Shown piece after piece: positions 15,685 through 32,622 of a stretch of 33,065 nt of DNA. The translations under genes were made by a program, and so were the position numbers. Under the pieces are notes generated by a model, which searched no databases, was not told where the DNA came from, and was given only the letters and a program-made list of their open reading frames with translations. Where the stretch lies: the NCBI RefSeq assembly GCF_900182905.1, contig NZ_FXUF01000023.1, positions 1 through 33,065 of the forward strand. Reading direction: 5' to 3'. Origin of the DNA: Anoxynatronum buryatiense (lineage in GTDB: Bacteria; Bacillota; Clostridia; Peptostreptococcales; Tindalliaceae). Positions within the stretch are counted from its first letter, which is position 1, and every line of letters starts with the position of its first letter.

Positions 15685-17136
15685 GTGATCACAGGCGAAC
15701 TGAAAAACAAAGTAGACAAAATCTGGGAAATATTTTGGACAGGCGGCATCACCAACCCCCTCTCCGTCATCGAACAATTCACCTACCTGCTCTTTATTAA
15801 AGGGCTGGACGATAAACAGACCGACCTGGAGCAAAATGCCGAAATCCTGGGCATCGAGTCAGAGCGCATTTTCACCCCAGACCAGGAAAACTACCGCTGG
15901 AAGAACTTCAAACAGCTCCATGCCAATGCCATGTACGAAGTGGTGAGTAAGCAGGTCTTTCCTTTTATCAAAAATATGCACAGCGACACTAACTCTGCCT
16001 TCGCCAAATACATGGACGACGCCATCTTCATGATCCCCACCCCCCAGATGCTGGAAAAAATCGTCACCAACATCGATGCCCTGCCTCTGGAAGACCGGGA
16101 CGCCAACGGCGATCTTTACGAATACCTCCTGTCCAAGGTGGCCACCGCCGGCACCAATGGCCAGTTCCGCACGCCCCGCCACATCATCCGCATGATGGTG
16201 GCCTTGATGCAACCTACCCCCACCGATGTGATCATCGACCCGGCCGCAGGATCTGCCGGGTTTTTGGTGGCTGCCGGTGAATACCTCCAGAAAAACCACG
16301 AAGACCTCTTTGCCAACAAAGAGCTGAAAGAGCATTACAGCAAAACCATGTTCCACGGTAATGATATGGACCGCACCATGCTCCGCATCGGCGCCATGAA
16401 CATGATGCTCCACGGCGTGGAAAATCCCAACATCGAATATCGGGATTCCCTGGCGGAAGTGAACAAGGACAAAGACCGCTACACCCTGGTCCTGGCCAAT
16501 CCCCCCTTCAAAGGCTCCCTGGACTACGACAGCGTTTCTGCCGAACTCCTTCAAATCACCAAAACCAAAAAGACAGAGATCCTTTTCCTGTCCCTATTTT
16601 TGCGCATCCTGAAAAAAGGCGGCCGCGTGGCCTCCATCGTCCCCGACGGCGTCCTCTTTGGCAGCTCCAACGCCCACAAAGCCATCCGCCGGGAAATCAT
16701 CGAAAACCACCACCTCCACGCCATCATTTCAATGCCCAGTGGCGTGTTCAAACCCTATGCCGGAGTCTCCACCGCCATCATGGTCTTCACCAAAACCGGT
16801 TCCGGAGGCACCGACAAGGTCTGGTTCTATGACATGAAAGCCGACGGCTATTCCCTGGACGACAAGCGCCAGCCCATTGAACGGAACGACATCCAGGACA
16901 TCATCCACCGCTTTCTCAACCGGGAAGAAGAGCAGGACCGAAAGCGAACGGAGCAGTCGTTCATGGTGGACAAGGCAGAGATCGTGGGGAATGACTATGA
17001 CCTGTCTATCAACCGGTACAAGGAAACGGAATATGAAGAAGTGGTTTATGAGGCACCCAAGGTGATTATTGAGAAGATCAGAACCCTTGAACAGCAGATT
17101 CTTGATGGGTTGGATGACATTGAGAGGATGGTGTAG
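15685..17136 (+). CDS. hsdM: Type I restriction-modification system, DNA methyltransferase subunit HsdM
   Basis: 483 aa. The N-terminal HsdM_N helical domain (ITGELKNKVDKIWEIFW... FTYLLFIKGLDD) is followed by the N6-adenine methylase domain, with S-adenosylmethionine motif DPAAGSAGF near residue 189 and catalytic motif NPPF in VLANPPFKGS near 272. It methylates adenine in the asymmetric target chosen by HsdS. The start is GTG at 15685 with AGGAGG 7 nt upstream. The stop is 2 bp before the HsdS start, so translation is probably coupled. The full M-S-R set is intact, suggesting an active system. Confidence 0.97.
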   Translation: MITGELKNKVDKIWEIFWTGGITNPLSVIEQFTYLLFIKGLDDKQTDLEQNAEILGIESERIFTPDQENYRWKNFKQLHANAMYEVVSKQVFPFIKNMHSDTNSAFAKYMDDAIFMIPTPQMLEKIVTNIDALPLEDRDANGDLYEYLLSKVATAGTNGQFRTPRHIIRMMVALMQPTPTDVIIDPAAGSAGFLVAAGEYLQKNHEDLFANKELKEHYSKTMFHGNDMDRTMLRIGAMNMMLHGVENPNIEYRDSLAEVNKDKDRYTLVLANPPFKGSLDYDSVSAELLQITKTKKTEILFLSLFLRILKKGGRVASIVPDGVLFGSSNAHKAIRREIIENHHLHAIISMPSGVFKPYAGVSTAIMVFTKTGSGGTDKVWFYDMKADGYSLDDKRQPIERNDIQDIIHRFLNREEEQDRKRTEQSFMVDKAEIVGNDYDLSINRYKETEYEEVVYEAPKVIIEKIRTLEQQILDGLDDIERMV

Positions 17137-17138
17137 GG

Positions 17139-18329
17139 GTGGATTTGGTAAAACTGAAAGAAGTTGCTGAAATTGTTTCTGGAAGCACTCCAAAAACCAA
17201 CAAAATAGAGTATTGGGATGGGCAAATACATTGGATAACACCAGCCGATTTAGAAAAAAAGAGTAACGGATATATTTACTCAACAAGCAGGAAAATAACC
17301 GATAAAGGATTTGAATCAAGCAATCTAAAAATGCTTCCAGTTGGCACGGTCCTATTAACAACAAGAGCGCCAATTGGAAAAGTGGCCTTGGCAGGTGTAG
17401 AACTTTGTACCAATCAGGGTTTCAAGAATATAATTTGCGATAGTGCTGTTTTGGCTAGCGAGTATTTATACTATTATCTAACGAGTCAACATGATCAACT
17501 TAATGCATTGGGTAGAGGAGCAACTTTCAAGGAAATATCTAAGAAAATTGTGGAGGATTTAATCATCCCCCTCCCACCGCTCCAAACCCAGCAAAAAATC
17601 GTCCAAGTCCTGGACAAAGCCCAATCGCTCATCGACAAGCGAAAAGAGCAGATTGAGCTGATGGATGAACTGATTCAATCCACTTTTTATGAGATGTTTG
17701 GGGATCCGGTGGTGAATGAGAAGGCTTGGATAACGAAAAAAGTCGGATCTCAGTTAGAAAGAATAATTTCTGGATGGAGCGTGAGCGGTGAAGAAAGAAA
17801 GAAAATAAATGGAGAGATTGCTGTTCTAAAAATAAGCTCAGTAACATCAGGTGCTTTCAAGCCAGATGAACACAAAGTTGCAAACCAATTAGATAAGAAA
17901 AAAGTCTTAGTTAAACCATTGAAAGGAGATATATTATTTAGCAGAGCTAATACAAGAGAGCTTGTAGCAGCATCGTGTATCGTAGAAGATAATTACGATG
18001 ATTTATTCTTGCCTGATAAGTTGTGGAAAATCGTTATTGACTCGAAAAAGCTATCAAATTATTGGTTTAATGCGCTTCTGCAAAATAATAGTTTCAGGGC
18101 AACATTAACTAAGCAAGCATCTGGCACAAGTGGTTCAATGCTAAACATATCAAAAAACAAGTTTGAGAACTCGCTAATGCCAGTTCCCCCAATCGAATTC
18201 CAAAAACAATTCGCCGATATCGTCCAAAAAATAGAAGCCCAAAAACAACTGATGGAGCAAGCCCTCACCGAAATGGAAAACAACTACAACAGCCTGATGC
18301 AGCGTGCCTTCAAAGGCGAAATAATGTAA
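17139..18329 (+). CDS. hsdS: Type I restriction-modification system, specificity subunit HsdS
   Basis: 396 aa, starting at GTG 17139. There are two target recognition domains, about residues 5-135 (LKEVAEIVSGSTPK...) and 195-345 (VGSQLERIISGWSV...). Each is followed by a conserved helical spacer: LPPLQTQQKIVQVLDKAQSLIDKRKEQ and the C-terminal PPIEFQKQFADIVQKIEAQ. The spacers set the distance between the two half-sites of the DNA target. The recognition domains are clearly more AT-rich than the spacers and than hsdM/hsdR, a sign of domain exchange between alleles. The target sequence cannot be predicted. Confidence 0.95.
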   Translation: MDLVKLKEVAEIVSGSTPKTNKIEYWDGQIHWITPADLEKKSNGYIYSTSRKITDKGFESSNLKMLPVGTVLLTTRAPIGKVALAGVELCTNQGFKNIICDSAVLASEYLYYYLTSQHDQLNALGRGATFKEISKKIVEDLIIPLPPLQTQQKIVQVLDKAQSLIDKRKEQIELMDELIQSTFYEMFGDPVVNEKAWITKKVGSQLERIISGWSVSGEERKKINGEIAVLKISSVTSGAFKPDEHKVANQLDKKKVLVKPLKGDILFSRANTRELVAASCIVEDNYDDLFLPDKLWKIVIDSKKLSNYWFNALLQNNSFRATLTKQASGTSGSMLNISKNKFENSLMPVPPIEFQKQFADIVQKIEAQKQLMEQALTEMENNYNSLMQRAFKGEIM

Positions 18330-18364
18330 AGAGATATAGAGGAACCCCCGAAAGGAGAACGCCT

Positions 18365-21300
18365 ATGCCCGGCAACTTCCAGTTTCTGCAAAAAGAAGCC
18401 AAGTACCGTTCCTTTTGTGATGCCTGTATGGAGGCGGAAAAAAGCCTGGTGGTTTCCTACGCCACCACCGCCATCCTCACCCGCCGGGCGCTGGAGCTGG
18501 CGGTGAAATGGGTGTATAGCTTCGACGAAGCCCTCACCGTTCCCTACGACGAAAAGCTGGGGGCCCTCCTTCATGACTACCAGTTTAAAAGCACCATCGA
18601 CAGCCAACTCTTCCCCATGCTCATCTACATTCAAAAGTTGGGGAACAAGGCTGTCCATTCCGCATCCCCCATCACCCGGGAGCAGGCAGTGCTGGCCCTG
18701 AAAAACCTCTTTGCCTTCACCGGGTGGATTGACTACTGTTATTCTGAGGACTATGCAGAAACCCACTTTGACGAAAGCCTGCTGCCGGACAAAGCCCAGG
18801 AGCAGAAAACCCTTCAGGAGCTTCAGGCCCTGCAGCAGCGTTTGGGTGCCCAGGACAAAAAGCTGGAAGAAATCATAGCCGAAAACCAGCGGCTGCGCCG
18901 GGAAAACACCGCCAAGCGGGAATCCAACCGACAGCAGCGTACCTATAAGGTGGACGAAATTACCGAATTCCAGACCCGGAAAATGTACATCGACCTGGAG
19001 CTGGAACTGTGCGGCTGGACCTTTGGCAAAAACTGCCTGGAAGAAGTGGAAGTCGCCGGGATGCCCAGCGCCAGCGGGATCGGCTACATCGACTATGTGC
19101 TCTATGGTGATGACGGCAAGCCCCTGGCTGTGGTGGAAGCCAAGAAAACCAGCATTGACCCCAAAATGGGCCAGGTGCAGGCGGAGCGTTATGCCGACTG
19201 CCTGGAAAAACAGTACGGCTACCGGCCCCTTATCTTTTATACCAACGGATTTGACTATTACCTGTGGGACGACCGCAGTTACCCGGAACGCATAGTGTCC
19301 GGCCTTTACACCAAGGAAGAACTCCTCTGGACTTTGTACCGGCGGGATCACCGCCAGTCACTGGAAAACCCCATGATCAACGACGCCATCACCAACCGGG
19401 CCTATCAAAAGCTGGCCATTGGTGCCGTTTGTCATTCCCTGAACCGGGGCAACCGAAAAGCCCTGTTGGTCATGGCCACCGGCTCGGGAAAGACCCGTAC
19501 CGCCATCTCTTTGGTGGATGTTCTTCTTAGCCGCGGATGGATCAAAAATGCCCTCTTCCTGGCAGACCGTACTGCTTTGGTGCGCCAGGCTAAAAAGAAC
19601 TTCAAGCACCAGCTGCCGGAGCTGTCCCTGTGCAACCTGCTGGACAGCAAAGACAACCCGGAAAGCCGCATGGTCTTTTCCACTTACCCCACCATGATGA
19701 ACGCCATTGACGATGTGAAAAACAGCACCGGGCAAAAGCTCTTTACCCGGGGCCATTTTGACCTGATCATCATTGACGAAAGTCACCGCAGCATCTACAA
19801 GAAATACCAGGCCATCTTTTCCTATTTTGATGCCATTCTCATCGGCCTCACCGCCACCCCCCGCAACGACCTGGATAAAAACACCTATGAAATCTTTGAG
19901 CTGGAAAACAACGTGCCCACCTACGCCTACGAGCTGGATGAAGCCATCAACGACGGCTATCTGGTGCCTTACCATACCATCGAAACCAAAATGAAGTTTC
20001 TGGAAGAAGGCATCCACTACGACGACCTGCCGGAGGACGAGAAGGAACTCTTTGAGGAAACCTTTGACGATGATGTGCGGGACATCAGCAGTGAAGAGCT
20101 AAACGCTTTTCTCTTCAACAGCGACACCGTCGACCGTGTGATTCGGGAGCTGATGGAAAAGGGGCTGAAGGTGGAAAGCGGCGACAAGCTGGGGAAAACC
20201 ATCATCTTCGCCAAAAACAAGAAACATGCCGATTTCATCGTGAAACGGTTTAACCTCCTGTATCCAGAATACAAGGGGGAGTTTGCCCTGCCTGTCTACA
20301 CCGGCATAAATTATGTCACTGCTACCATGGATGACTTTGAAGTGAAGGAGCGGCTCCCTCAAATTGCCGTTTCCGTGGACATGCTGGACACCGGCATCGA
20401 CATTCCCGAAATACTAAACCTGGTCTTTTTCAAAAAGGTGCGGTCTAAAACCAAGTTCTGGCAGATGATCGGCCGGGGCACCCGCCTGTGCGAAAACCTC
20501 TTTGGGGCCGGTATCCACAAGGAAGAGTTCCGCATCTTCGACTACTGTGGCAACTTTGAATTCTTCCGGGTGGACAAGAACGGCAAGGAAGCCAAAGTGA
20601 TGGTGAGCCTTACGGAGAAACTGTTCAATGTGAAGCTGGGAATTATCCGGGAGCTGCAGAACCTGGACTACCAGCGGGAAGATTACGAAGCCCATCGAAA
20701 AGCACTGATAGAAGAGGTGCTGGCAGAAGTGCTGAAGATAGACGAGAATAAGTTCAGCGCCCGTATGAAACTGAAATACATACACAAATTCAACCAGGCA
20801 GAGGCCTACGAAAACCTCTCTGAGAATGACCTGCGGGAATTGGCGGAACATGTGGCGCCCCTCATCCCAGCCCGGGATGAAGAAGAAATGGCCAAACGCT
20901 TCGATTACCTGATGTACACCATTGAGTACGCCGAGCTGAAGGGGCTTGAATCCTCCAAACCTAAGCGAAAAGTGGTGACCACCGCTGAAAAGCTGTCTGA
21001 AAAAGGCACCATCGAAAAAGTGCGGCAACAGGAAGAACTGATTCGCCGTGTCCAAACCCAGGAATTCTGGGACAACGCCGATTTAATGGATTATGAGATG
21101 GTGCGGGAAGCCTTCCGAGATTTGGTGCGATACATTGAAGAAGGGTCAAAACAGATCTACTACACAAACTTCACCGATGAAATACTGGAAAGCAAGGAGC
21201 ATAAAGGCGAATACAAGATCAATGACATGGAAAATTATCGAAAGAAAGTAAACCGGTACCTGAAAGACAACCAGGACGACCTGGTGGTCTATAAGCTGCG

Positions 21301-21688
21301 CCATAACATGGAACTGAATATTGAAGATCTGAAACACTTGGAGAAGGTTCTCTGGCATGACCTGGGTACCCGGGAAGACTATCAGAAAGAGTTTGGTGAC
21401 GAACCCTTGATGAAATTGGCCAGCGAAATCGTTGGCTTGGACCCCAAAGCCGCCAACGAAGTCTTCGCCGAATTCCTCTCCGACGAAAACCTTAATCAAA
21501 ATCAGATGGAGTTCGTGAACCTCATCGTCAAGCACATCATCCAAAACGGCAGCCTGGACAAAAAAGTGCTAATCGAGCACCCCTTCAACAAAGCGGGGAA
21601 CGTGACAAAGCTCTTTGACCAGAAAATTGATACGGCGAAAAAGATTATTCATGTGATTGACCGGTTGAATGGAAGGTTGAGTGTGTGA
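18365..21688 (+). CDS. hsdR: Type I restriction-modification system, restriction subunit HsdR
   Basis: 1107 aa. Residues about 15-125 resemble DUF4145, often found at the N-terminus of this HsdR type, followed by a coiled coil (about 140-195). The PD-(D/E)xK nuclease core shows D243 and E258-A-K260 (VVEAKKT). The SF2 translocase follows, with Walker A ATGSGKT at 371-377, motif II DESH, and the later motif QMIGRGTRLCENL, then a long helical C-terminus that docks on the M/S core. It cuts unmodified DNA after ATP-driven translocation. It lies 35 bp after hsdS, with GGAG upstream of the ATG. No frame damage is seen. Confidence 0.97.
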   Translation: MPGNFQFLQKEAKYRSFCDACMEAEKSLVVSYATTAILTRRALELAVKWVYSFDEALTVPYDEKLGALLHDYQFKSTIDSQLFPMLIYIQKLGNKAVHSASPITREQAVLALKNLFAFTGWIDYCYSEDYAETHFDESLLPDKAQEQKTLQELQALQQRLGAQDKKLEEIIAENQRLRRENTAKRESNRQQRTYKVDEITEFQTRKMYIDLELELCGWTFGKNCLEEVEVAGMPSASGIGYIDYVLYGDDGKPLAVVEAKKTSIDPKMGQVQAERYADCLEKQYGYRPLIFYTNGFDYYLWDDRSYPERIVSGLYTKEELLWTLYRRDHRQSLENPMINDAITNRAYQKLAIGAVCHSLNRGNRKALLVMATGSGKTRTAISLVDVLLSRGWIKNALFLADRTALVRQAKKNFKHQLPELSLCNLLDSKDNPESRMVFSTYPTMMNAIDDVKNSTGQKLFTRGHFDLIIIDESHRSIYKKYQAIFSYFDAILIGLTATPRNDLDKNTYEIFELENNVPTYAYELDEAINDGYLVPYHTIETKMKFLEEGIHYDDLPEDEKELFEETFDDDVRDISSEELNAFLFNSDTVDRVIRELMEKGLKVESGDKLGKTIIFAKNKKHADFIVKRFNLLYPEYKGEFALPVYTGINYVTATMDDFEVKERLPQIAVSVDMLDTGIDIPEILNLVFFKKVRSKTKFWQMIGRGTRLCENLFGAGIHKEEFRIFDYCGNFEFFRVDKNGKEAKVMVSLTEKLFNVKLGIIRELQNLDYQREDYEAHRKALIEEVLAEVLKIDENKFSARMKLKYIHKFNQAEAYENLSENDLRELAEHVAPLIPARDEEEMAKRFDYLMYTIEYAELKGLESSKPKRKVVTTAEKLSEKGTIEKVRQQEELIRRVQTQEFWDNADLMDYEMVREAFRDLVRYIEEGSKQIYYTNFTDEILESKEHKGEYKINDMENYRKKVNRYLKDNQDDLVVYKLRHNMELNIEDLKHLEKVLWHDLGTREDYQKEFGDEPLMKLASEIVGLDPKAANEVFAEFLSDENLNQNQMEFVNLIVKHIIQNGSLDKKVLIEHPFNKAGNVTKLFDQKIDTAKKIIHVIDRLNGRLSV

Positions 21689-22264: not shown

Positions 22265-23362
22265 ATGTCGAAAATTTTTATCGAGTGCCTCAGCGCTCCT
22301 GACAAAATTAAGAATCAGCTGCGGTCGTTGTCTGTTGATATTGAATTTACTCGTGAGGGGACAAAGGGAGCCAATGGTTATCTCTACTTTGGTGAAAATA
22401 GAATCCTACACACGAAAGTAGCTGTAAAATTTTACTATTGGGGAGGAGACACAAGATTTCACGCGGAACCATCTGCATTGGGAAAGCTAGCTGGAGAAAA
22501 CATCCTTCCAATTAACACTGCCGGTCTGCTGGATGGCGAGTGGGCATATTTCGTGACGCCCTATTGCCAGAATGGAGATCTTGATGACCTCTTGGATAAT
22601 TCTTGCATAGGCAACATTGAAGCTATTAACCGTACCTGTCAAATTCTGAGTGGAGTTGGTGTTCTCCATGCCCACCGCTATGTGCATCGAGACTTGAAAC
22701 CTGCGAATATCTACATAGGTGATAACTATCAATCCATCATCGGCGATTTCGGCTCAGTTAAGCATATACCAGAAGGCCAAAGTTCTATTCCTGCTTCAAG
22801 TCATGCGGTTCTTTATAGGCCGCCTGAATCAGTAGAGACGAGTTCTTATGGATTCGAAGGAGACATTTATCAATGTGGATTAGTTTTGTTTCAACTCTTG
22901 GGTGGTTCGCTACCTTACGAGGAAACATTCTGGCTAAACCGTTTACAGAGGAAGAAGTACGACGAACTAACGAATGAAGTTGATCGTGCGATTTATGCAG
23001 ATCAATGCATCAAGGCGAGAATAGTTAGCGGGAGAATAGTCGACATTTCCACCCTGCCCCCATGGGTTCCAGATGTATTAAAGCGAATAATCCGCAAAGC
23101 GACCCACATTGACCCATTGAGGCGATTTCAATCAATCTCTGCGTTCCATGTAACTTTGAATAACAACCGGGCTCGAGTTCAAGACTGGTGTATTACAGAC
23201 GGTGCCCCTCATCTACAAGCACAACCGCAGTTCAAAGTTTGTGAAGAAAATGGCCAGTATTTTGTGCTCAAGTCTAGGGACGGTTGCAACTGGCGCCGTG
23301 ACAACTCATTCAAAGGCAACAGCATAGATGAACTTGTTAAAGAAATTTCAGTGCGGGCTTAA
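22265..23362 (+). CDS. Eukaryotic-type Ser/Thr protein kinase with C-terminal extension
   Basis: 365 aa. The kinase domain is complete in its key residues: glycine loop EGTKGANG (31-38), ATP-anchoring lysine VAVK (K55), alpha-C glutamate E68, catalytic loop HRDLKPAN (141-148), Mg-binding DFG (161-163) and PPE (186-188). After the kinase fold, at about residue 290, comes a roughly 75-residue tail with many aromatic and charged residues (FKVCEENGQYFVLKSRDG) that I do not recognise. There is no membrane segment or PASTA repeat, so it is not the housekeeping PrkC type. It is coupled to DUF3010 upstream and sits between a restriction system and a STAND NTPase, so a role in phage defence signalling is plausible. 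Confidence 0.88.
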   Translation: MSKIFIECLSAPDKIKNQLRSLSVDIEFTREGTKGANGYLYFGENRILHTKVAVKFYYWGGDTRFHAEPSALGKLAGENILPINTAGLLDGEWAYFVTPYCQNGDLDDLLDNSCIGNIEAINRTCQILSGVGVLHAHRYVHRDLKPANIYIGDNYQSIIGDFGSVKHIPEGQSSIPASSHAVLYRPPESVETSSYGFEGDIYQCGLVLFQLLGGSLPYEETFWLNRLQRKKYDELTNEVDRAIYADQCIKARIVSGRIVDISTLPPWVPDVLKRIIRKATHIDPLRRFQSISAFHVTLNNNRARVQDWCITDGAPHLQAQPQFKVCEENGQYFVLKSRDGCNWRRDNSFKGNSIDELVKEISVRA

Positions 23363-23578: not shown

Positions 23579-26500
23579 ATGAGATTTTTTGAGCTTGAAT
23601 CTACTGACATCTCGGATCTAAATGATGCTGACCTACGAGAAATGGTAGCGCGATTATGCGAAGCGGAATTGATTATGCAAGGAATTCAGCCGTCTTGTGT
23701 TTTGTGGGGTGGTGCACAGGAAGCAGCAGACGGCGGCCTTGATATACGTGTGGAATCAACCAAGTCCATTAGGCCTGGTTTTATACCACGCAAAAATACT
23801 GGTTTTCAAGTGAAGAAAAGCAGCATGAGCAAAGCCGCATGTACAAAAGAGATGTTGGAGAAAGGATGCATAAAGCAGGTTATCACCACTTTGGCATCTC
23901 AAAATGGAGCGTATATCATAGTCAGTGGCAAAGATGATTGTTCTGACAAGATGCTCGATGAGCGGCTCATTGGGATGCGAAAAGCCGTTGAAGAAGTAAT
24001 AAATGAGGATGATCTGCTACTTGATTTTTATGGAAGAGATAGATTGACCACTTGGTTGAGGCAGTATCCAGGAGTTGCGTTATGGGTGCGTTCGCAATTA
24101 GGAAAGTCCCTGGCAGGCTGGAGTCCATTTGGTCGATGGGCGTCAACGCCACCTAATCAAGATGATGAGTTTTTACTCGATGATTACCCGTGTGTCATAG
24201 ATGCAAACTCGCAAGAAAAAGAGCCTATGGGAATTGCTGAAGGAATCAGTCTTGCACGCGAAAGACTACGGAATGCTGGCAGCACTGTTCGAATAACCGG
24301 TTTATCAGGTGTGGGAAAGACGCGTTTTGCTCAGGCACTTTTTGAAACTGACATAGGAGAAGATGCGTTGCCATCTGCAAATGTAATCTATGCCGATCTT
24401 GGTCATGACATTATACCCACTGCTTCAGAACTTGTTTCGTATCTTATTGCCAATGATTTTTCAGCTTACCTTGTTCTGGACAATTGCCCACCAGATGTCC
24501 ATCGCAGTTTGCAGAAAAATGTTTCATCCCATAGCGCGAGATTAAGCCTTCTGACAATTGAATACGATATTTCTGACGATCGGCCTGAAGAAACAGAAGT
24601 CATTCATTTAGAGCCGTCGAGCGAGGAGACTGTATCTAAGCTCGTCCAGAAAAGATTTCCGGATTTAGGGAGTATTAATGCTAACAAAGTGGCAGAATTT
24701 GCTGGTGGTAATGCTCGCGTTGCACTAGCTTTGGCAAGCAGGGTTGATGCGGATGATACATTATCGAATTTTTCTGATGAAGACTTGTTTCTGCGATTAT
24801 TTAACCAAAGAAAAGGAAGTACAGACTCCCTGATAGAATGCGCAGAAATTTTATCTCTTGTGTATTCATTCAATGTCTCCCAGTCAGAATACAATGATGA
24901 ACTGGGTGTTCTGGCGACCATCGGTGGAGTTGAACGTCGGTTACTTTTTCGAAGCCATGCTGAGCTTTTCAGAAGGCAACTATCACAACAACGCGGAAAT
25001 TGGCGAGCCGTTTTGCCACACGCCTTGGCTAACCGATTAGCCAAAAGAGGACTGCAGAACATCACTCATTATGAAATTAACAGCGAACTTTTTAAGCGAA
25101 AAAACTTGCGATTATTTAAATCCTGTGCGCATAGAATTGGATACTTACATGATTTTGAACCTGCGCGGCAATTAGCCTATACATGGATTCAATCAGGTGG
25201 TCCGCTGTATGATATCGCGTCTTGTGATGAGGAACATTTAGAGATTCTTAGCTATATCGCTCCTGTTTTCCCCGAAGCTGTGTTGACATCTATCGAAAAT
25301 GCATCCGCGGATCCTGAGTTTGCATCAAGGACAAATAAGCACTTTTCAGTTATTGTAAGGCTTCTGTGTCAACTCGCTTATGAGGATGAAAGTTTTGATC
25401 GGGCAGCAGAAATAATCCTGAAGTTTGCCGAGACAGAAAAAGTTGATGAGAATAACAATAGTGTTGTAAGGCAGCTAAGCTCCCTTTTTTCGTTGTACTT
25501 ATCAGGCACGCATGCTACTCCAAAGAGAAGACAGGCGTTTCTCGAACGTTTGCTTAGTTCAAGTAATCCGAAACATCAAGAAATGACTCATAAGCTGTTT
25601 CAGTCTGCATTAGAAGCGAATCATTGGTCTTCGTTCGGAACCTTTGGCTTCGGCGCCCGTTCTAGAGACTATGGTTGGAGACCCAAAACACACGAGGAGA
25701 GACTTGATTGGTATAAAGGTTTCATTGAGATACTGAAGCCCATATTGATTCCAAATAATGAGGCATCTGCAAAAGGGGTTAAGGATTTGCTTGCAGATTG
25801 CTTCCGAGGCTTGTGGACTTTTGCTGGTTGCTTTGATGTTCTTGAAGAACTTGTTCGTATATATGCATATGGTGGAAGCTGGCCAGAAATGTGGATATCT
25901 ATCAAGCAAACTATTTATTATGATGGGAAAAATCTTTCGCCAGAACTTCTCACCAAACTCGAAGCACTTGAGCGTTTGGCTGCTCCTTCGGACCCTTTTT
26001 CTGAAATTGAAGCCTATGCACTAATGGACACTTGGAAGCACAAAGAAATTGAGGATGAAAACTACGAAGAGAAGTCCAAAACTATCCATGAAAAATTAGT
26101 GAGATTGGGTGAACTTGCAGCCTCAACGCCTGAATATCTTGAAAAATTGGCACCTAGGCTTTGGGAAAAGCACATTAATTCGCTTTGGTCATTCGGGCAA
26201 GGGATTGCCAAAGGCAGTGATGACCCAAGTACAACATTTGACTTCCTCGTAGGATTAATGCAGGCACAAGATCTTGAAATTGTTCAACCTACTTTGTTTG
26301 GTGGCTTCATCCAAGGCGTTTACGCAGAAGATCCGATCATGGCACGCCAACTCCAAGAGCAAGTCATAGAAATACCAGAGCTTAAACCGCATTTTGTGTA
26401 CCTGCTGAGTTCTACACCAGTAGTTGAGTGGGGCGTTCAAAGACTGATAGAAATGGCACATCTTGGAGAAATAGATGCACAGCGCTTTGAACAAATCATG

Positions 26501-27403
26501 TATGGTCGAATACATGAGACAATTTCTGACAGGGATTTGGCGCAGATTCTTTCAGCAATCAATGAGTTAGAAGATGGTGTTTTCTCAACAATCGAGATGC
26601 TTGGAATGCGTATTTATACTTTAAAAGATAGCAAATGTGTGCCCAGTGAAGAGTTGCGAACAGTCGGGCGGGCGGCAATTAAAAAGTTGCTTAAGATGCA
26701 TAGGAAAACTTTTAAAATGCATCGGCAGATTGCACTGGATCGTGTGGCCACTGAGTGTTTATCTATATATGCGCCTGAGAATGAAGTTCGAGATATTGTG
26801 AGACTGCTTTGTGAAGGTATTGTAAGCTTTCGTCTCTACAGCTACGAACTAACAGAGATTATTGAAAATCTTATCGTTAATTTTCCAGAGGTGATTCTGA
26901 ACAGTGTTTTCACAGGCGATGAGAATGAAACTCTGCTTGTGGAGAGTCTTTTCAAAGATCGGGTTTCACTACGGCACGAACTGTCATTGAATATCGTTCC
27001 AGTGGACATCTTATTGAAATGGTGTAATGGAAATCAAGATCGAATACAAAGAATTGCAGCTGCGGTCAGGACCTACACGTATTCAGGGAAAGAAAACAAC
27101 CTATCAGACAATCCGAATCAGTTCAAACTTAGCAATCATATCGAAACGTTTCTTAACGTTGCAGAGAACCCGATAGACATTGTTGAAATTATATTCAAAG
27201 ATACTTGGCCTGATAGTTGTTCTGGGTCGCTTGCAGCCATTATTGAAGCTCGATCAAGAGCTTTTGCCGAACTTCTGGATCACACTTCGCGTGAGGTGCA
27301 AGACTTTGCTAGGCACAAGCTAACGATTATTGAGAGTTCAATACGAAAAAACAGAGAGCGGGAAGCAGCAGAAAACAGTTTGCGTGAACAAAGATTTGAA
27401 TGA
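23579..27403 (+). CDS. Large STAND-type NTPase with N-terminal Mrr/PD-(D/E)xK nuclease-like domain
   Basis: 1274 aa. Residues 1-175 look like a restriction-endonuclease fold: WGGAQEAADGGLD (D51, D55) followed by FQVKK (Q77, K79), a QxK variant of PD-(D/E)xK. The NTPase core has Walker A GLSGVGKTR at 241-249 and Walker B AYLVLDN with D301, then FAGGNARVALALA, typical of STAND/AAA+ signal ATPases. The last 800 or so residues are helical and probably form the repeat sensor. The layout matches Avs-like antiviral STAND proteins, in which a phage protein triggers oligomerisation and the nuclease kills the cell; membership is inferred, and no exact subtype is claimed. ATG with AAGGGG 8 nt upstream. 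No frameshifts seen. Confidence 0.85.
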   Translation: MRFFELESTDISDLNDADLREMVARLCEAELIMQGIQPSCVLWGGAQEAADGGLDIRVESTKSIRPGFIPRKNTGFQVKKSSMSKAACTKEMLEKGCIKQVITTLASQNGAYIIVSGKDDCSDKMLDERLIGMRKAVEEVINEDDLLLDFYGRDRLTTWLRQYPGVALWVRSQLGKSLAGWSPFGRWASTPPNQDDEFLLDDYPCVIDANSQEKEPMGIAEGISLARERLRNAGSTVRITGLSGVGKTRFAQALFETDIGEDALPSANVIYADLGHDIIPTASELVSYLIANDFSAYLVLDNCPPDVHRSLQKNVSSHSARLSLLTIEYDISDDRPEETEVIHLEPSSEETVSKLVQKRFPDLGSINANKVAEFAGGNARVALALASRVDADDTLSNFSDEDLFLRLFNQRKGSTDSLIECAEILSLVYSFNVSQSEYNDELGVLATIGGVERRLLFRSHAELFRRQLSQQRGNWRAVLPHALANRLAKRGLQNITHYEINSELFKRKNLRLFKSCAHRIGYLHDFEPARQLAYTWIQSGGPLYDIASCDEEHLEILSYIAPVFPEAVLTSIENASADPEFASRTNKHFSVIVRLLCQLAYEDESFDRAAEIILKFAETEKVDENNNSVVRQLSSLFSLYLSGTHATPKRRQAFLERLLSSSNPKHQEMTHKLFQSALEANHWSSFGTFGFGARSRDYGWRPKTHEERLDWYKGFIEILKPILIPNNEASAKGVKDLLADCFRGLWTFAGCFDVLEELVRIYAYGGSWPEMWISIKQTIYYDGKNLSPELLTKLEALERLAAPSDPFSEIEAYALMDTWKHKEIEDENYEEKSKTIHEKLVRLGELAASTPEYLEKLAPRLWEKHINSLWSFGQGIAKGSDDPSTTFDFLVGLMQAQDLEIVQPTLFGGFIQGVYAEDPIMARQLQEQVIEIPELKPHFVYLLSSTPVVEWGVQRLIEMAHLGEIDAQRFEQIMYGRIHETISDRDLAQILSAINELEDGVFSTIEMLGMRIYTLKDSKCVPSEELRTVGRAAIKKLLKMHRKTFKMHRQIALDRVATECLSIYAPENEVRDIVRLLCEGIVSFRLYSYELTEIIENLIVNFPEVILNSVFTGDENETLLVESLFKDRVSLRHELSLNIVPVDILLKWCNGNQDRIQRIAAAVRTYTYSGKENNLSDNPNQFKLSNHIETFLNVAENPIDIVEIIFKDTWPDSCSGSLAAIIEARSRAFAELLDHTSREVQDFARHKLTIIESSIRKNREREAAENSLREQRFE

Positions 27404-27927: not shown

Positions 27928-28095
27928 ATCATCGAAGTGGATCTGTATAAGCAAGTACGACACATGTAGGTGAATCTGGGAGAGTCACGGCGCGCTATCG
28001 CACAGGTACTAAACATTTCACGCAACACGGTTATCAAGTACTGAGACGGTAGTTGTGTACCGTGGGAAAGAAAGACACCACAGTGTATGAGTGCA
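27928..28095 (+). pseudogene. istA: Remnant of IS21-family transposase istA (N-terminal part)
   Basis: Reading from ATC at 27928, the frame gives IIEVDLYKQVRHM, a TAG stop, VNLGESRRAIAQVLNISRN, TVIKY, a TGA stop, and DGSCVPW. This is the conserved start of IstA: the VDLYKKVR segment, an HTH, and RNTVRKY...VP. Two in-frame stops and an out-of-frame upstream GTG (27923) show it is dead, and the rest of istA and all of istB are missing. GGGAGG at 27910 may be the old ribosome binding site. Confidence 0.75.
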
Positions 28096-28116
28096 TGCTG
28101 GACACAGATGCACGCC

Positions 28117-28141
28117 GGGGACGGAGGATGTGTAACTTTGG
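28117..28141 (+). repeat. GGGACGGAGG-type dispersed repeat, copy 4
   Basis: It begins GGGGACGGAGGATGTGTAAC; the preceding ACGCC is also present before copy 1, so the shared unit is ACGCCGGG(G)ACGGAGG. Confidence 0.5.
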
Positions 28142-28181
28142 CATTGTAACCTTCAATGACGTTGCACTGACGTGTTCACTA

Positions 28182-28212
28182 GGGACGGAGGCACTGTCAA
28201 CTCTTACCTGTC
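28182..28212 (+). repeat. GGGACGGAGG-type dispersed repeat, copy 5
   Basis: GGGACGGAGGCACTGTC is followed by ACCTGTCC, which can pair back to GGAC.GG. It lies just before the NERD gene and may sit in its leader. Confidence 0.45.
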
Positions 28213-28250
28213 CTCTAACCGAAAATGAAAACTGGTTAGGAGGCTTCCTT

Positions 28251-29321
28251 ATGTCAATCATTGATTCACTGAAAGAAGTCATTACCCAAAAGCCGGTTCA
28301 TTTGAAAAAACCTCTCTTTTATAAATCTGATAGCGATGCAGAACGTCAGTTGAAAAGTTTAAAAGAACTTCTCGAGAGGGTACCGGCGCACGTGAAAGGC
28401 GATGTGGAAAAAGACATCAATTTGCTGACTTATGGTATTGTTGGGGAGAAAAACGTGGCATTTGAACTAAACAACAGCTTTCTTCCGATGATCGTGTTAC
28501 ACGATTTGTGTTTGATGTATGAAGAGCTCTCGGCTCAAATTGATTACTTAATCATCACACCAAAAGTAAATTTGGTGGTGGAGTGTAAAAATTTGGTGGG
28601 TGATATTGAAGTTAACGCGAGTGGAGATTTTATCCGAACCATTAAATATGGGGGCCGATATCACAAAGAGGGAATCTATAGTCCAATCACGCAAAACAGA
28701 CGCCATCTAGAGGTGATAAAGGCAGCCAGAAAGCAGAAAAAGGGCAACTTTTTCACTCAGGCGCTTTTTGAAAAATTCTTTGATGATAACTATAAATCAG
28801 TGGTGGTTCTGTCCAATCCCAAGACGGTAATCAACATGAGATATGCAAAAAAAGAAGTGAAAGAGCAAATTATTCGCAGTGATCAACTGATTGAGTATAT
28901 TAAGAAGCTGATGAATGAAAGCAGTAATCCCACATCAACTGAAAAAGAAATGTATGAAATAGCAGATGCTTTTCTTGAAATGCATACATCCAGAGAAATG
29001 GATTACACAAAGAAGTATGGTATGGAACTCAATCTGAAGGTGGCTGAGAACTTAGGAGATCAGCCAGTAATACCGGCAAGGGCAGGCGAAAAAACAAATA
29101 TTGAAGAAACATCTATTTACAAAGCATTGAAGCAGTACCGGCTTGAGACAAGCAAAAAAGAGGGCATCAAAGCATATTACATATACAACAATGCGCAAAT
29201 GGAAGAATTGATCGAAATGGCCCCCACAACCTTGGAAGACATTAAAAAAGTTTCGGGGTTTGGAGAAATGAAGTGCCGGAAATATGGAGAAGATATTTTG
29301 GAGATATTTCGGGCCCATTAA
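28251..29321 (+). CDS. NERD-HRDC nuclease-like protein
   Basis: 356 aa from the ATG at 28251, chosen for AGGAGG 7 nt upstream; the open frame reaches back to 28053 but that part is repeat and istA debris. Residues about 60-190 form a NERD domain, a PD-(D/E)xK relative, with E66 (GEKN), D98 (QIDYLIIT) and E111-C-K113 (VVECKN) as the likely catalytic set. Residues about 285-355 are an HRDC domain (KALKQYRLETSKKEG... LEDIKKVSGFGEMKCRKYGEDILEIF), a nucleic-acid-binding module of RecQ and RNase D. The pairing suggests a DNA- or RNA-processing enzyme. It is monocistronic within a defence island. GC about 40% by eye. Confidence 0.85.
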   Translation: MSIIDSLKEVITQKPVHLKKPLFYKSDSDAERQLKSLKELLERVPAHVKGDVEKDINLLTYGIVGEKNVAFELNNSFLPMIVLHDLCLMYEELSAQIDYLIITPKVNLVVECKNLVGDIEVNASGDFIRTIKYGGRYHKEGIYSPITQNRRHLEVIKAARKQKKGNFFTQALFEKFFDDNYKSVVVLSNPKTVINMRYAKKEVKEQIIRSDQLIEYIKKLMNESSNPTSTEKEMYEIADAFLEMHTSREMDYTKKYGMELNLKVAENLGDQPVIPARAGEKTNIEETSIYKALKQYRLETSKKEGIKAYYIYNNAQMEELIEMAPTTLEDIKKVSGFGEMKCRKYGEDILEIFRAH

Positions 29322-29630: not shown

Positions 29631-29817
29631 TGTAGTATCAGAGGTGCTACATAGCGCTATTCCGATGGAGATATGGAGTGTATTCGATGGATTATCGAAA
29701 GAGTGAAGTATTAAAGGTTTATCATTGTTACAGAAAGAAGCCGATATTACCGAACCAAGGTTCGCAAATACCTACTGAAATGGGAGGTGAAGCGAACTGA
29801 GTGGCGGGAATAAGACG
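29631..29817. other. Sequence flanking the left cassette boundary
   Basis: No gene is supported. There is a hairpin CGAACC-AA-GGTTCG at 29751-29764. The end, GGGAATAAGACG, directly precedes the cassette boundary TTATGC and could be part of an attI site or of a lost attC; no full attC can be drawn here. Confidence 0.35.
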
Positions 29818-29874: not shown

Positions 29875-30459
29875 ATGATGAAAATCAATCCAATTAAAAT
29901 TAATGGAGAGTGGGAAGAAGGATTTGCATTAGGTGTACATACTTTAAGTAGTGAATATTTAGGAGAAGATGAATACGGACGTAAACAGTTTGATACTATA
30001 AGAAGTGATATAGGTCAATTAGTTTATGAGTTGAAGTATGTTTGTAATAGAAGTAAAGTAGATGATATAATTAATTTAATAAGTCCATTTTTGAAAAAGT
30101 GGAATATTCGAGAAAATATAGATATTATAATCCCTGTTCCACCTACAAAATTAGAACGTGTATTTCAACCAGTTTTTGAAATAACAGATGCTTTAAGTAA
30201 TGTACTTAAAATTAGTACTGACAAAGGTGTACTTGAGAAAACTAACCGAACAGAGTGCAAAGAATTAAGCTCAGTGGAAAAAAATAAAATAGCAGGTACA
30301 ATTCAATTAATGAAGAGATTTGAAAGGGAAGTTAACATCCTATTAGTAGATGATTTATATCAATCAGGAACTACATTGAATGATGCTACTAAGGCTTTAA
30401 AGAAAGATTCAAATGTTAAAAAAGTATATGTTTTAACTATGACGAAAACAAGGAGATAA
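29875..30459 (+). CDS. ComF-like phosphoribosyltransferase
   Basis: 194 aa. The PRPP-binding signature ILLVDDLYQSGTT (residues 155-167) is intact, and the type I PRTase strand IDIIIPVPPTKLERVFQPV (82-100) matches the ComF group. Family members transfer phosphoribosyl groups or have lost catalysis; here the loop residues look complete, so an enzyme is plausible. The first 45 residues are unlike ComF zinc-ribbon N-termini and no cysteine cluster is present. ATG at 29875 (or 29878) after a G-rich AGGGGGG. It is 4 bp before the SLOG gene, whose ribosome binding site lies in its tail, so the two form an operon. Very AT-rich, unlike nearby genes. Confidence 0.78.
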   Translation: MMKINPIKINGEWEEGFALGVHTLSSEYLGEDEYGRKQFDTIRSDIGQLVYELKYVCNRSKVDDIINLISPFLKKWNIRENIDIIIPVPPTKLERVFQPVFEITDALSNVLKISTDKGVLEKTNRTECKELSSVEKNKIAGTIQLMKRFEREVNILLVDDLYQSGTTLNDATKALKKDSNVKKVYVLTMTKTRR

Positions 30460-30463
30460 AGCT

Positions 30464-30994
30464 ATGAAAATTTTTATTGGAGGTCCTAGAGCAATATCTA
30501 GATTAAATCAAGACATTAAAGAAAGATTAAATAATATTTTTCGTGATAATTACACAGTATTGGTTGGAGATGCGAATGGTATAGATAAAGCAATACAAAA
30601 GCATTGTTATGAGAGTAATTATAATAATGTTAATGTGTATGCAACTGACGGTAAAGCTAGAAATAACATTGGCAATTGGGAAGTTGTAAAAGTCATGGTA
30701 TCTTCAAGTACAAAAGGCTTTGAATACTATTCAGCTAAAGACAAAGAAATGGCTAAAGTAGCTGATTATGGTTTTATGATATGGAACGGCAAAAGCAAAG
30801 GAACATTAAACAACCTTATCAATCTTGTAAGTTATAATAAAAAAGTATTAGTATACTTCACTCCCAATCGAAAATTTTATACAATAAAAAAAATTAGTGA
30901 AATTGAAACTTTTGTTAGAAGTTGCGATGGTATAGCAAAAAAGAATTTTTCAAACCTCTCAAAACAAAATGAACAAATGATGTTAAATATATAG
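30464..30994 (+). CDS. YspA/YpsA-related SLOG-family protein
   Basis: 176 aa. It has the SLOG Rossmann-like pattern: a first strand ending in GGPR (6-9), VLVGDANGIDKAIQ (32-45), and the C-terminal KDKEMAKVADYGFMIWNG (92-109) followed by KSKGT, which forms the nucleotide-binding lip. SLOG proteins bind nucleotides or NAD/ADP-ribose-type ligands and are frequent in defence and nucleotide-signalling systems; the ligand here is unknown. The last 40 residues (KISEIETFVRSCDGIAKKNF...) are a helical tail. AAGGAG overlaps the phosphoribosyltransferase end, so translation is coupled. The pair probably makes or senses a nucleotide-derived molecule together, which is inference. Confidence 0.72.
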   Translation: MKIFIGGPRAISRLNQDIKERLNNIFRDNYTVLVGDANGIDKAIQKHCYESNYNNVNVYATDGKARNNIGNWEVVKVMVSSSTKGFEYYSAKDKEMAKVADYGFMIWNGKSKGTLNNLINLVSYNKKVLVYFTPNRKFYTIKKISEIETFVRSCDGIAKKNFSNLSKQNEQMMLNI

Positions 30995-31005
30995 GAGTCA
31001 TATAC

Positions 31006-31084
31006 TTCGCATAACAGAGGCTTAGCAACATCGGAGAGTAGCTTTCATAGGAAAGTCCGACGTCGCTAAGCCTCGAGACGTTAT
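31006..31084 (+). repeat. attC-like recombination hairpin ending cassette 1
   Basis: The outer arms ATAAC (31011-31015) and GTTAT (31080-31084) pair, with an asymmetric 1/5-nt loop. A perfect 10-bp stem follows, GAGGCTTAGC (31017-31026) with GCTAAGCCTC (31065-31074). Two mismatches then lead to ATCGGA / TCCGAC-type pairing, and CTTTC / GAAAG closes a 4-nt loop with a 6-nt bulge on one side. Overall size (about 75 nt), position at a gene 3' end and ...AAC / GTT... ends fit attC. The uneven spacer is not canonical, so this is a probable, not certain, call. Confidence 0.55.
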
Positions 31085-32622
31085 ATAAAATCTCGCACAA
31101 AAGAAAGTTGCATTACACTTAAAAAATTGAGAAAGGAAAACCCTATGAGAATTTTAAAATATATATTAAAAATTTCACTCCACTATGCTCCGTCCTAAAC
31201 TTTTCACCGAACTTTTAAGTTAGAATATTATTGATTTTATGATAGTAGATGATAATTATTATAATAGGAGGAGTGATATGGGTTCATATGCTTCATTGAT
31301 GTTAGGAAAATATGATTTGTTAATAAGCAAGAATTGTATAGCAGATTATCTGTTAATTATATTTAATAAGAACGATAAGGTTGTGGAAAAAGACTATGAT
31401 GAAGACGGGGAAGAATACTTCCGTTATCAGTATAAAACTAATGTTAAGAAAGCAAAAGAATGCTTAGATGTTTTGGGATACACTTTAAAAAAGGCTAAAG
31501 CTATTTTTGAAGAATACAAATGTGAATTAGAATTCAGATTTGAATTAGATTTTGAAGATAGATACGAAGAGATGTATAACCAATTTACTTATGAAACATG
31601 GTCAAAGACTATGGTTGATGTTGCGAGTGATTTAATAAGAAACGGGATGAACTATGAAAGAACTAGAGAAGATTTAAAGCACATAAGTAAAAATGAAAAT
31701 CTTGATAGATATATTATTTTAAGATCATTAGAATATGATGACGAATCTTATTTTGGAATGCCATATGAGATGGATCCTTGGTTTACAATTAGAATAATAC
31801 TTGAGAGTGTTTCTAATGAGGAAGAAACTATTTTAGATTATACTGATTTAGTTGATGGAGGATGGTACGACTCAAGTCAAGAGATAGAAAGTTTCTATAA
31901 TTCTAAGATTATAATTATGACTGAAGGAAAAAGCGATTCAAAAATTATATCAAAATCATTAGAGATAATGTATCCACATTTGTATCATTTTTATTATTTT
32001 ATGGATTTTGATATAGCTAAAGCTCAAGGTAGCACTAATTTTTTGACTCATTATATTAAAGCTTTTATTGGGTCGGGAATAAGTAATCAGATAATAGCTT
32101 TATTTGATAATGATGCGGCTGCTCATAATGAGATTTTAAATTTTGAGAAAGTGAAAATTCCATCTAATATTAGAATTATGACATTGCCAGATATTGAAAT
32201 AGCAAATGACTACCCTACCATTGGTCCGTTTAATTATCAAAATGCAAATATTAATGGTTTAGCTTGTAGTATCGAACTTTTTTTGGGTAAGGACGTTTTG
32301 TGTGATAATGATGGAAATTTAGCACCTGTAATATGGAAAGGATACATAGACAGAATCAATAAGTATCAAGGAGAAATAACCAATAAAGATCAAGTTCAAC
32401 AAAGCTTTTTTCATGTTATGGATCAAATTGAAAACAAGTCACTACCAATGGAAGGACATGATTGGAGTACAATGGAAAAATTATTACAAATGATCTTCAA
32501 TGCATTCCAGTAAAAAGATAAATAACATTAGGGGTAAGCGTCATATGGAACTGAGTCTAGGGGTGCGCGACTTTACATAACAATACATTGCCAGCTCCGC
32601 TGCGCTCCGACCCAAACCTTTT
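31081..32622 (+). mobile_element. Integron-type gene cassette 2 (HEPN/Toprim protein), attC cut off
   Basis: The cassette starts TTATATAAAATCTCGCAC after the boundary G. Its reverse complement is found after the gene: GTGCGCGACTTTACATAAC at 32563-32581 matches the complement of 31080-31098 at 16 of 19 positions. This is the same start/end complementarity as in cassette 1. After it, ATTGCC and a CG-rich palindromic stretch (GCTCCGCTGCGCTCC) look like the left half of an attC, but no GGCAAT or GTTAT partner follows; 23-bp tandem units begin instead. Confidence 0.5.
31278..32513 (+). CDS. HEPN/Toprim-associated domain protein
   Basis: 411 aa from the ATG at 31278, which has AGGAGGAG 4-5 nt upstream and gives the MGSYASL start typical of this family; an in-frame ATG at 31239 is upstream of that site. 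The C-terminal half is a Toprim fold: IIIMTEGKSDSK with E216, and ALFDNDAAA with D277 and D279, the acidic triad that binds Mg in OLD nucleases, primases and topoisomerases. The N-terminal 180 residues match the domain usually paired with HEPN or Toprim effectors. It is probably a nucleic-acid-cleaving defence effector (inference). It is the only gene of cassette 2 and is strongly AT-rich. Confidence 0.78.
   Translation: MGSYASLMLGKYDLLISKNCIADYLLIIFNKNDKVVEKDYDEDGEEYFRYQYKTNVKKAKECLDVLGYTLKKAKAIFEEYKCELEFRFELDFEDRYEEMYNQFTYETWSKTMVDVASDLIRNGMNYERTREDLKHISKNENLDRYIILRSLEYDDESYFGMPYEMDPWFTIRIILESVSNEEETILDYTDLVDGGWYDSSQEIESFYNSKIIIMTEGKSDSKIISKSLEIMYPHLYHFYYFMDFDIAKAQGSTNFLTHYIKAFIGSGISNQIIALFDNDAAAHNEILNFEKVKIPSNIRIMTLPDIEIANDYPTIGPFNYQNANINGLACSIELFLGKDVLCDNDGNLAPVIWKGYIDRINKYQGEITNKDQVQQSFFHVMDQIENKSLPMEGHDWSTMEKLLQMIFNAFQ

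Follow-up and report, generated by a model that had tools for sequence, protein, structure and literature searches.

The closest described systems pair a DprA homologue with a phosphoribosyltransferase (PRTase). According to the accessible part of PMC9122126, a DprA and PRTase pair shields E. coli from T7 and lambda, and DprA homologues act as antitoxins in shosTA, psyrTA and rqlHI. Genetic work on RqlHI identified RqlI as the antitoxin and found the PRTase domain of RqlH to be non-toxic in isolation (PMC4670107, accessible part). Structures of ShosT and ShosA have been solved and, going by PDB titles only, one entry is named 'The ShosTA toxin-antitoxin system provides phage defence'. Cassette-borne phage defence is also an established idea, as indicated by two titles in the reference list of PMC13092281.

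A gene pair was analysed in a stretch of 33,065 nucleotides from Anoxynatronum buryatiense (NZ_FXUF01000023.1, positions 1 to 33,065; hereafter the window). A sequence-only reading of the window had called its composition undescribed. That claim is dropped here, as a PRTase next to a DprA/SLOG protein is the composition of ShosTA and of PsyrTA/RqlHI; what is new is a compact branch and its recurrence as an integron cassette. The pair is most probably a toxin-antitoxin module of the ShosTA/PsyrTA kind in compact PRTase-SLOG form, and it travels as an integron cassette. A literature search, with subscription papers largely outside its scope, found no publication describing the pair as a cassette.

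Genes, motifs and predicted folds

The genes and their motifs were as follows.

29875..30459, + strand: T, ComF-like PRTase, proposed toxin (194 aa, ATG start)
30340..30378, + strand: PRPP-binding loop LLVDDLYQSGTTL (T residues 156-168)
30464..30994, + strand: A, single-domain SLOG protein, proposed antitoxin (176 aa, ATG start)
30566..30586, + strand: SLOG motif GDANGID (A residues 35-41)

The two translationally coupled frames, the intact PRPP loop and the SLOG partner were already part of the sequence-only reading, and all three held up. The T stop and the A start are 4 bp apart, with an AGGAG stretch immediately upstream of the A start. D159, D160 and G165 of the PRPP loop were invariant across 54 T proteins, and G35, D36, A37, G39 and D41 of the SLOG motif across 53 A proteins. 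T matched TIGR00201 (comF) with an E-value of 1.6e-7, far under the model cut-off, and A matched Pfam DprA weakly (E 0.0035, under cut-off).

Both structures were predicted with confidence (mean pLDDT 92.2 for T and 93.8 for A). In a Foldseek search of the PDB with the predicted T, Helicobacter pylori ComF ranked first and ShosT next (8zvd and 8zvb, with 8zvc sixth); the ShosT matches comprised a phosphate-bound form, a second ShosTA entry and, in sixth place, a PRPP-Mg-bound form. By VIA-align Z, ComF scored 16.7 and ShosT 11.5, the latter barely above adenine PRTases at 10.5. The predicted A has a SLOG/DprA-like fold. ShosA (8zva) was its top PDB hit by Foldseek, and no other entry reached E <= 0.001; by VIA-align Z (12.1) ShosA tied with DprA, YpsA, LOG and molybdenum-carrier proteins (range 12-13.5). 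Searched against PDB sequences, the A profile gave no match at E <= 1, and a profile comparison of A with a ShosA-type protein was not significant.

Among 74 intact pairs, T ranged from 188 to 211 aa; A measured 158-203 aa in 60; in 13 others it was 275-295 aa long, and one reached 784 aa. The 784-aa frame (L089:4992-7343, Lysobacteraceae) joins A to a DNA methyltransferase-like region, and could be a genuine fusion or an artefact of read-through in assembling a metagenome. A PF21716 'probable addiction module antidote protein' domain was fused in 5 of 53 A proteins, and the one of these checked with NCBIfam, from Xanthomonas, exceeded the TIGR02684 cut-off. On an Agrobacterium vitis plasmid (L250:2001-3526), T and A are accompanied by a separate helix-turn-helix gene, which resembles the helix-turn-helix-bearing form of A split in two.

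Comparison with described systems

T and A share with ShosTA (PDB 8zva, 8zvb, 8zvc, 8zvd) the two folds, adjacent genes and a retained PRPP site. They differ in extent: T aligns to ShosT residues 159-364 only and A to ShosA residues 131-290 only, and the N-terminal parts of both solved proteins are missing. The pair is for this reason called a variant, not a member, of ShosTA. The ShosTA models were weak on it (26.3 bits for T, 20.7 bits for A), compared with 58.9 (ShosT) and 237.9 bits (ShosA) for a ShosTA-type pair from another genome.

PsyrTA/RqlHI combines a RecQ-like helicase-PRTase fusion with a DprA-like partner. T resembled most closely the PRTase at the C terminus of PsyrT (48.5 bits, model positions 537-685 of 689), and the partner protein likewise carries a DprA-like domain; T lacks the helicase domain, its 194 aa being matched in the PRTase part only. 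PsyrA proteins adjacent to true PsyrT are 334-435 aa long and score 324-408 bits against the PsyrA model, unlike A. PsyrTA proper was rejected, there being no helicase fusion and no match to PsyrT at E <= 1e-60 in the genome. Each of the 54 T proteins scanned was hit by two PADLOC models, those for ShosT and for PsyrT (C-terminal PRTase), at E <= 0.01. On the A side, the ShosA model hit 7 of 53 proteins and the PsyrA model 4 of 53 (E <= 0.01), leaving 46 of 53 without a ShosA match. From these sequence comparisons the pair appears to be a compact, divergent branch of the ShosTA/PsyrTA kind, which existing models reach weakly.

A type III-A retron PRTase was also considered. The model matched T weakly (22.5 bits), and the candidate was rejected, as the neighbours are a NERD-HRDC gene (28053-29321) and a HEPN/Toprim gene (31239-32513), with no reverse transcriptase.

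ComF as the best fold match of T, and DprA among the top fold matches of A, would also fit a displaced ComF-DprA pair serving competence or DNA uptake. This origin is highly improbable. The genome has a separate DprA-type match (E 6.5e-62, ShosA/DprA model) and another hit of the T model apart from T itself; these are presumably the native dprA and comF, respectively. Compared with ComF frames of 230-300 aa, T is without the additional N-terminal region, and the pair sits in a mobile cassette. In a PRTase tree, ten ComF proteins formed one side without any T (support 97/92); T, PsyrT and ShosT-type rows were not resolved from one another owing to long branches. The competence pair was rejected because the host's comF- and dprA-type matches, the former a probable identification, are separate from T and A.

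Integron cassette and arrays

That the two genes travel as one mobile unit, as first proposed from sequence, could be sharpened: the pair is one integron cassette, with an attC on one side and an attI-like junction on the other.

29723..29817, + strand: attI-like recombination site, directly 5' of the cassette; recurs in the same genome
29818..31080, + strand: integron gene cassette, 1263 bp, bounded by G/TTATGC and G/TTATAT
31009..31086, + strand: attC of the cassette, GCATAAC ... GTTATAT boxes around a long hairpin
31239..32513, + strand: probable second cassette gene, HEPN/Toprim_N protein (PF18871), 28.9% G+C

The cassette has a G+C content of 29.8%, against 48.3% across positions 1-29321 of the window. 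The bottom strand of the attC folds at -22.5 kcal/mol (z -8.1), and none of 200 shuffles was equally good. The first bases of the cassette, TTATGC, are complementary to the GCATAAC box in its own attC. In being a low-G+C unit with a terminal attC, the cassette resembles the known defence and toxin-antitoxin cassettes of integrons.

Copies of the attI-like sequence (about 100 bp) were found elsewhere in the genome on contigs C17 (97% identity), C11 (86%) and C15 (88%). Similarity among the copies stops at the expected crossover, where the C11 copy reads GCTA instead of GTTA. The sequence showed no fold (z -0.45), thus behaving as an attI should and unlike an attC, and the upstream repeat is probably attI. 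On C17 the copy lies immediately 3' of a truncated tyrosine-recombinase frame of 154 aa, matched about equally by Xer and integron-integrase models, all under cut-offs. No match above the TIGR02249 cut-off for an intact integron integrase was found in the draft genome (4.16 Mb, 47 contigs), and the array may therefore be a fossil; an intact integrase is needed for present movement, not for cassette status. An exact attI scan of viral contigs returned 0 sites, and a promoter scan stayed at chance level (9 found, 9.9 expected).

No attC was recognised 3' of the HEPN/Toprim_N gene. Beyond that gene lies DNA common to the end of contig C15, IS-like by reading. In the same genome, C11 (L025), C15 (L019), C17 (L017) and C33 (L018) carry more attI-like copies or cassette-like low-G+C genes; those on C33 include HAD-like and hydrolase-like genes with attC-like sites (labels by reading). 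Several integron arrays are thus present in this genome, where no intact integrase was recognised.

Recurrence was scored at 102 A loci and in 1737 control windows with a simple attC score. Scores of at least 18 were reached at 3 loci (the window, L074 and L098) against 0.06 expected, and scores of at least 14 at 8 loci against 1.2 expected. The attC of the window had the top score among the A loci, and one control window reached 18. Two loci with a score of 14, L055 (Xanthomonadaceae) and L060 (Burkholderiales), each have a near-identical pair of attC flanks, about 10 nt 5' of T and directly 3' of A. Together with the window these attC-flanked pairs make T-A a recurring integron cargo; in the majority of T-A copies tested no attC was seen.

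Relatives and gene order

GTDB species genomes were scanned with the A alignment. Of 239 confirmed relatives 80 were kept, and these with 20 viral contigs gave a set of 100 A loci, to which the window was added. Both genes were intact in 74, always with T first, A second and on the same strand (74 of 74; start codons were chosen by script). The genes overlap by 4 nt in 43 of these pairs and are separated by 2-22 nt in the other 31. Judged from record titles, the pair occurs in more than 10 phyla, and the A relatives include Bacillota, Acidobacteria, Planctomycetes, Nitrospirae, Chloroflexi, Proteobacteria and others. Further pairs were found on Listeria innocua pLI100, in Neisseria gonorrhoeae and Xanthomonas phaseoli, and on an E. 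coli plasmid, and plasmids host many copies. A search of phage records gave a single match for T (26%) and none for A.

The sequence-only reading had named two outcomes that would count against it, a pair not conserved in other genomes and homologues always lying in nucleotide salvage operons. The pair is conserved, and a non-systematic reading of neighbourhoods met no salvage operon; the closest to such a context was one Neisseria pair upstream of a carB-like gene (by reading).

Some plasmids carry an A relative but no T. Those of Mesorhizobium and Shinella (L165, L167 and L168) have DUF2493 and DUF736 genes nearby. Two short A relatives on cyanobacterial plasmids (L166, L170), also without T, lie near another SLOG gene.

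One-sided loss of T

Loss of either gene was counted after excluding 27 ComF loci (L129-L155) and, among the 100 A loci, 6 truncated at a contig end (L050, L069, L073, L098, L103, L118). Of the 94 uncut loci found through A, 73 have an intact T, 13 a broken one and 8 none (21 of 94 broken or absent); in this count the A query favours intact A, some breaks in T may be assembly errors, and L111, counted as broken, may hold a divergent T. Viral loci found through T had an intact A in 16 of 16 (15 distinct). In a sample of 398 genomes from the window's phylum, the window genome included, A adjoined all three full-length T genes (E < 1e-50). A itself occurred in six of these genomes; the three without a full-length T belong to one genus, and one of them has a T fragment.

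For plasmids, 60 of 63 T records were listed, and the 51 single-piece rows covering at least 94% were counted. A lay right behind full-length T in 51 of 51, by tblastn in 49 (83-98% of A) and by profile match in L162 and L250; reading frames were checked in the fetched loci only. The nine other listed plasmid records, with split or partial T, had A in seven and none in two (L163, L164). Partial A in the fetched loci was seen in L188, where T is broken too, and in the short A relatives L166 and L170.

The direction of loss, T lost and A kept, was consistent throughout all sets. Fisher values (0.02, or 4.6e-6 with plasmids) were not relied on, because the viral T contigs overlap with the A set in 13 of 16 cases and the plasmid rows contain many near-copies. 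A outlives T, and full-length T was never without A in the counted sets, which is the pattern expected for a toxin and its antitoxin.

These counts also bear on the function given to the pair by the sequence-only reading, in which T would make or salvage a nucleotide signal and the SLOG protein A would sense or process it. Such a scheme would resemble Thoeris. With the PRPP site intact in T, the SLOG motif conserved in A, and ThsA SLOG domains among the structural matches of A (6lhx, Z 10.6), such signalling can be imagined; we nevertheless consider it very unlikely. A maker of a signal should be tolerable without its partner, yet full-length T from the T searches always has A; A survives the loss of T; most A proteins carry no fused effector domain (60 of 74 being 158-203 aa); and the nearest studied partners, ShosA and RqlI, are antitoxins. 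A toxin-antitoxin pair is the better fit to the one-sided decay, the fused antidote domain and the genetics of RqlHI.

Defence neighbourhood

The window is rich in defence genes.

15685-21688: type I restriction genes
22265-23362: protein kinase
23579-27403: PD-Lambda-4_A, full-length (1023 bits)
28053-29321: NERD-HRDC protein, weak DpdF-model match, following PD-Lambda-4_A

A check for known defence genes near the pair had been suggested from sequence. A random draw of 105 from the 334 proteins encoded within 5 kb of A loci was set against 105 of the 134 proteins in 20 arbitrary 10-kb segments from the window's phylum. The neighbours of A matched 135 PADLOC families at E <= 1e-20 and the controls 37, a comparison in which the control includes a CRISPR locus, the taxa differ and there are no per-protein counts. 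The excess near A is suggestive, and no firmer than that.

At five of six Anoxybacillus loci, type I genes sharing 62-75% identity with HsdM or HsdR of the window lie no more than 0.3 kb from A or the pair (A alone in L027, L028 and L030; the T-A pair in L029 and L033). Hsd genes like those of the window (at least 62% identity) were found at 5 of 80 A loci and 0 of 20 controls, a difference that is not significant. Two more A loci match HsdM at 29%; the hit of L089 in this comparison is its own sequence. The Anoxybacillus adjacency, with the A-methyltransferase-like fusion in L089, gave rise to a further reading, which we regard as a long shot: the compact pair would be a distinct class in which the single-domain SLOG antitoxin guards a restriction system, and T would be freed once the complex is upset, whether by an anti-restriction protein of a phage or because the enzyme is lost.

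Toxin-antitoxin cassettes stabilise integron arrays. With this precedent, T and A could serve chiefly to stabilise the cassette, or to maintain themselves selfishly by addiction, and play no part in phage defence, a reading that we hold doubtful but give some weight. It would suit the position of T-A first after the attI-like site, the failure to recognise an intact integron integrase in the genome, and the many plasmid-borne copies. The functional relatives of the pair, against this, protect from phage, and the window around it is defence-rich (type I restriction, full-length PD-Lambda-4). Addiction and defence can also coexist in one module.

Proposed function

For the compact toxin-antitoxin module, toxicity, binding of T by A, the trigger and phage defence are proposed by analogy with the studied relatives. 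Points against the module are the weak sequence likeness of A to ShosA, the structural ties of A with other SLOG-type folds, the narrow lead of ShosT over adenine PRTases among the T matches, the harmless isolated PRTase domain of RqlH, and the plasmids that carry A alone. T would be the toxin, a PRTase-fold enzyme using PRPP. A, as one SLOG domain made right after T, would keep it inactive, probably by attaching to it directly. Either an infecting phage or DNA stress would displace or occupy A. Free T may then drain PRPP, or may put phosphoribosyl on a base, a nucleotide or DNA, and growth would halt ahead of phage production.

Implications

Systems of the ShosTA/PsyrTA kind seem to include a large compact branch, to which current models respond weakly; plasmid records label T and A mostly as 'ComF family protein' and 'hypothetical protein'. 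A PRTase core with a bare SLOG domain is a handy form for studying the use of PRPP and its silencing by SLOG proteins. Integron cargo gains PRTase-SLOG pairs, found here in the window and, between attC sites, in two unrelated genomes.
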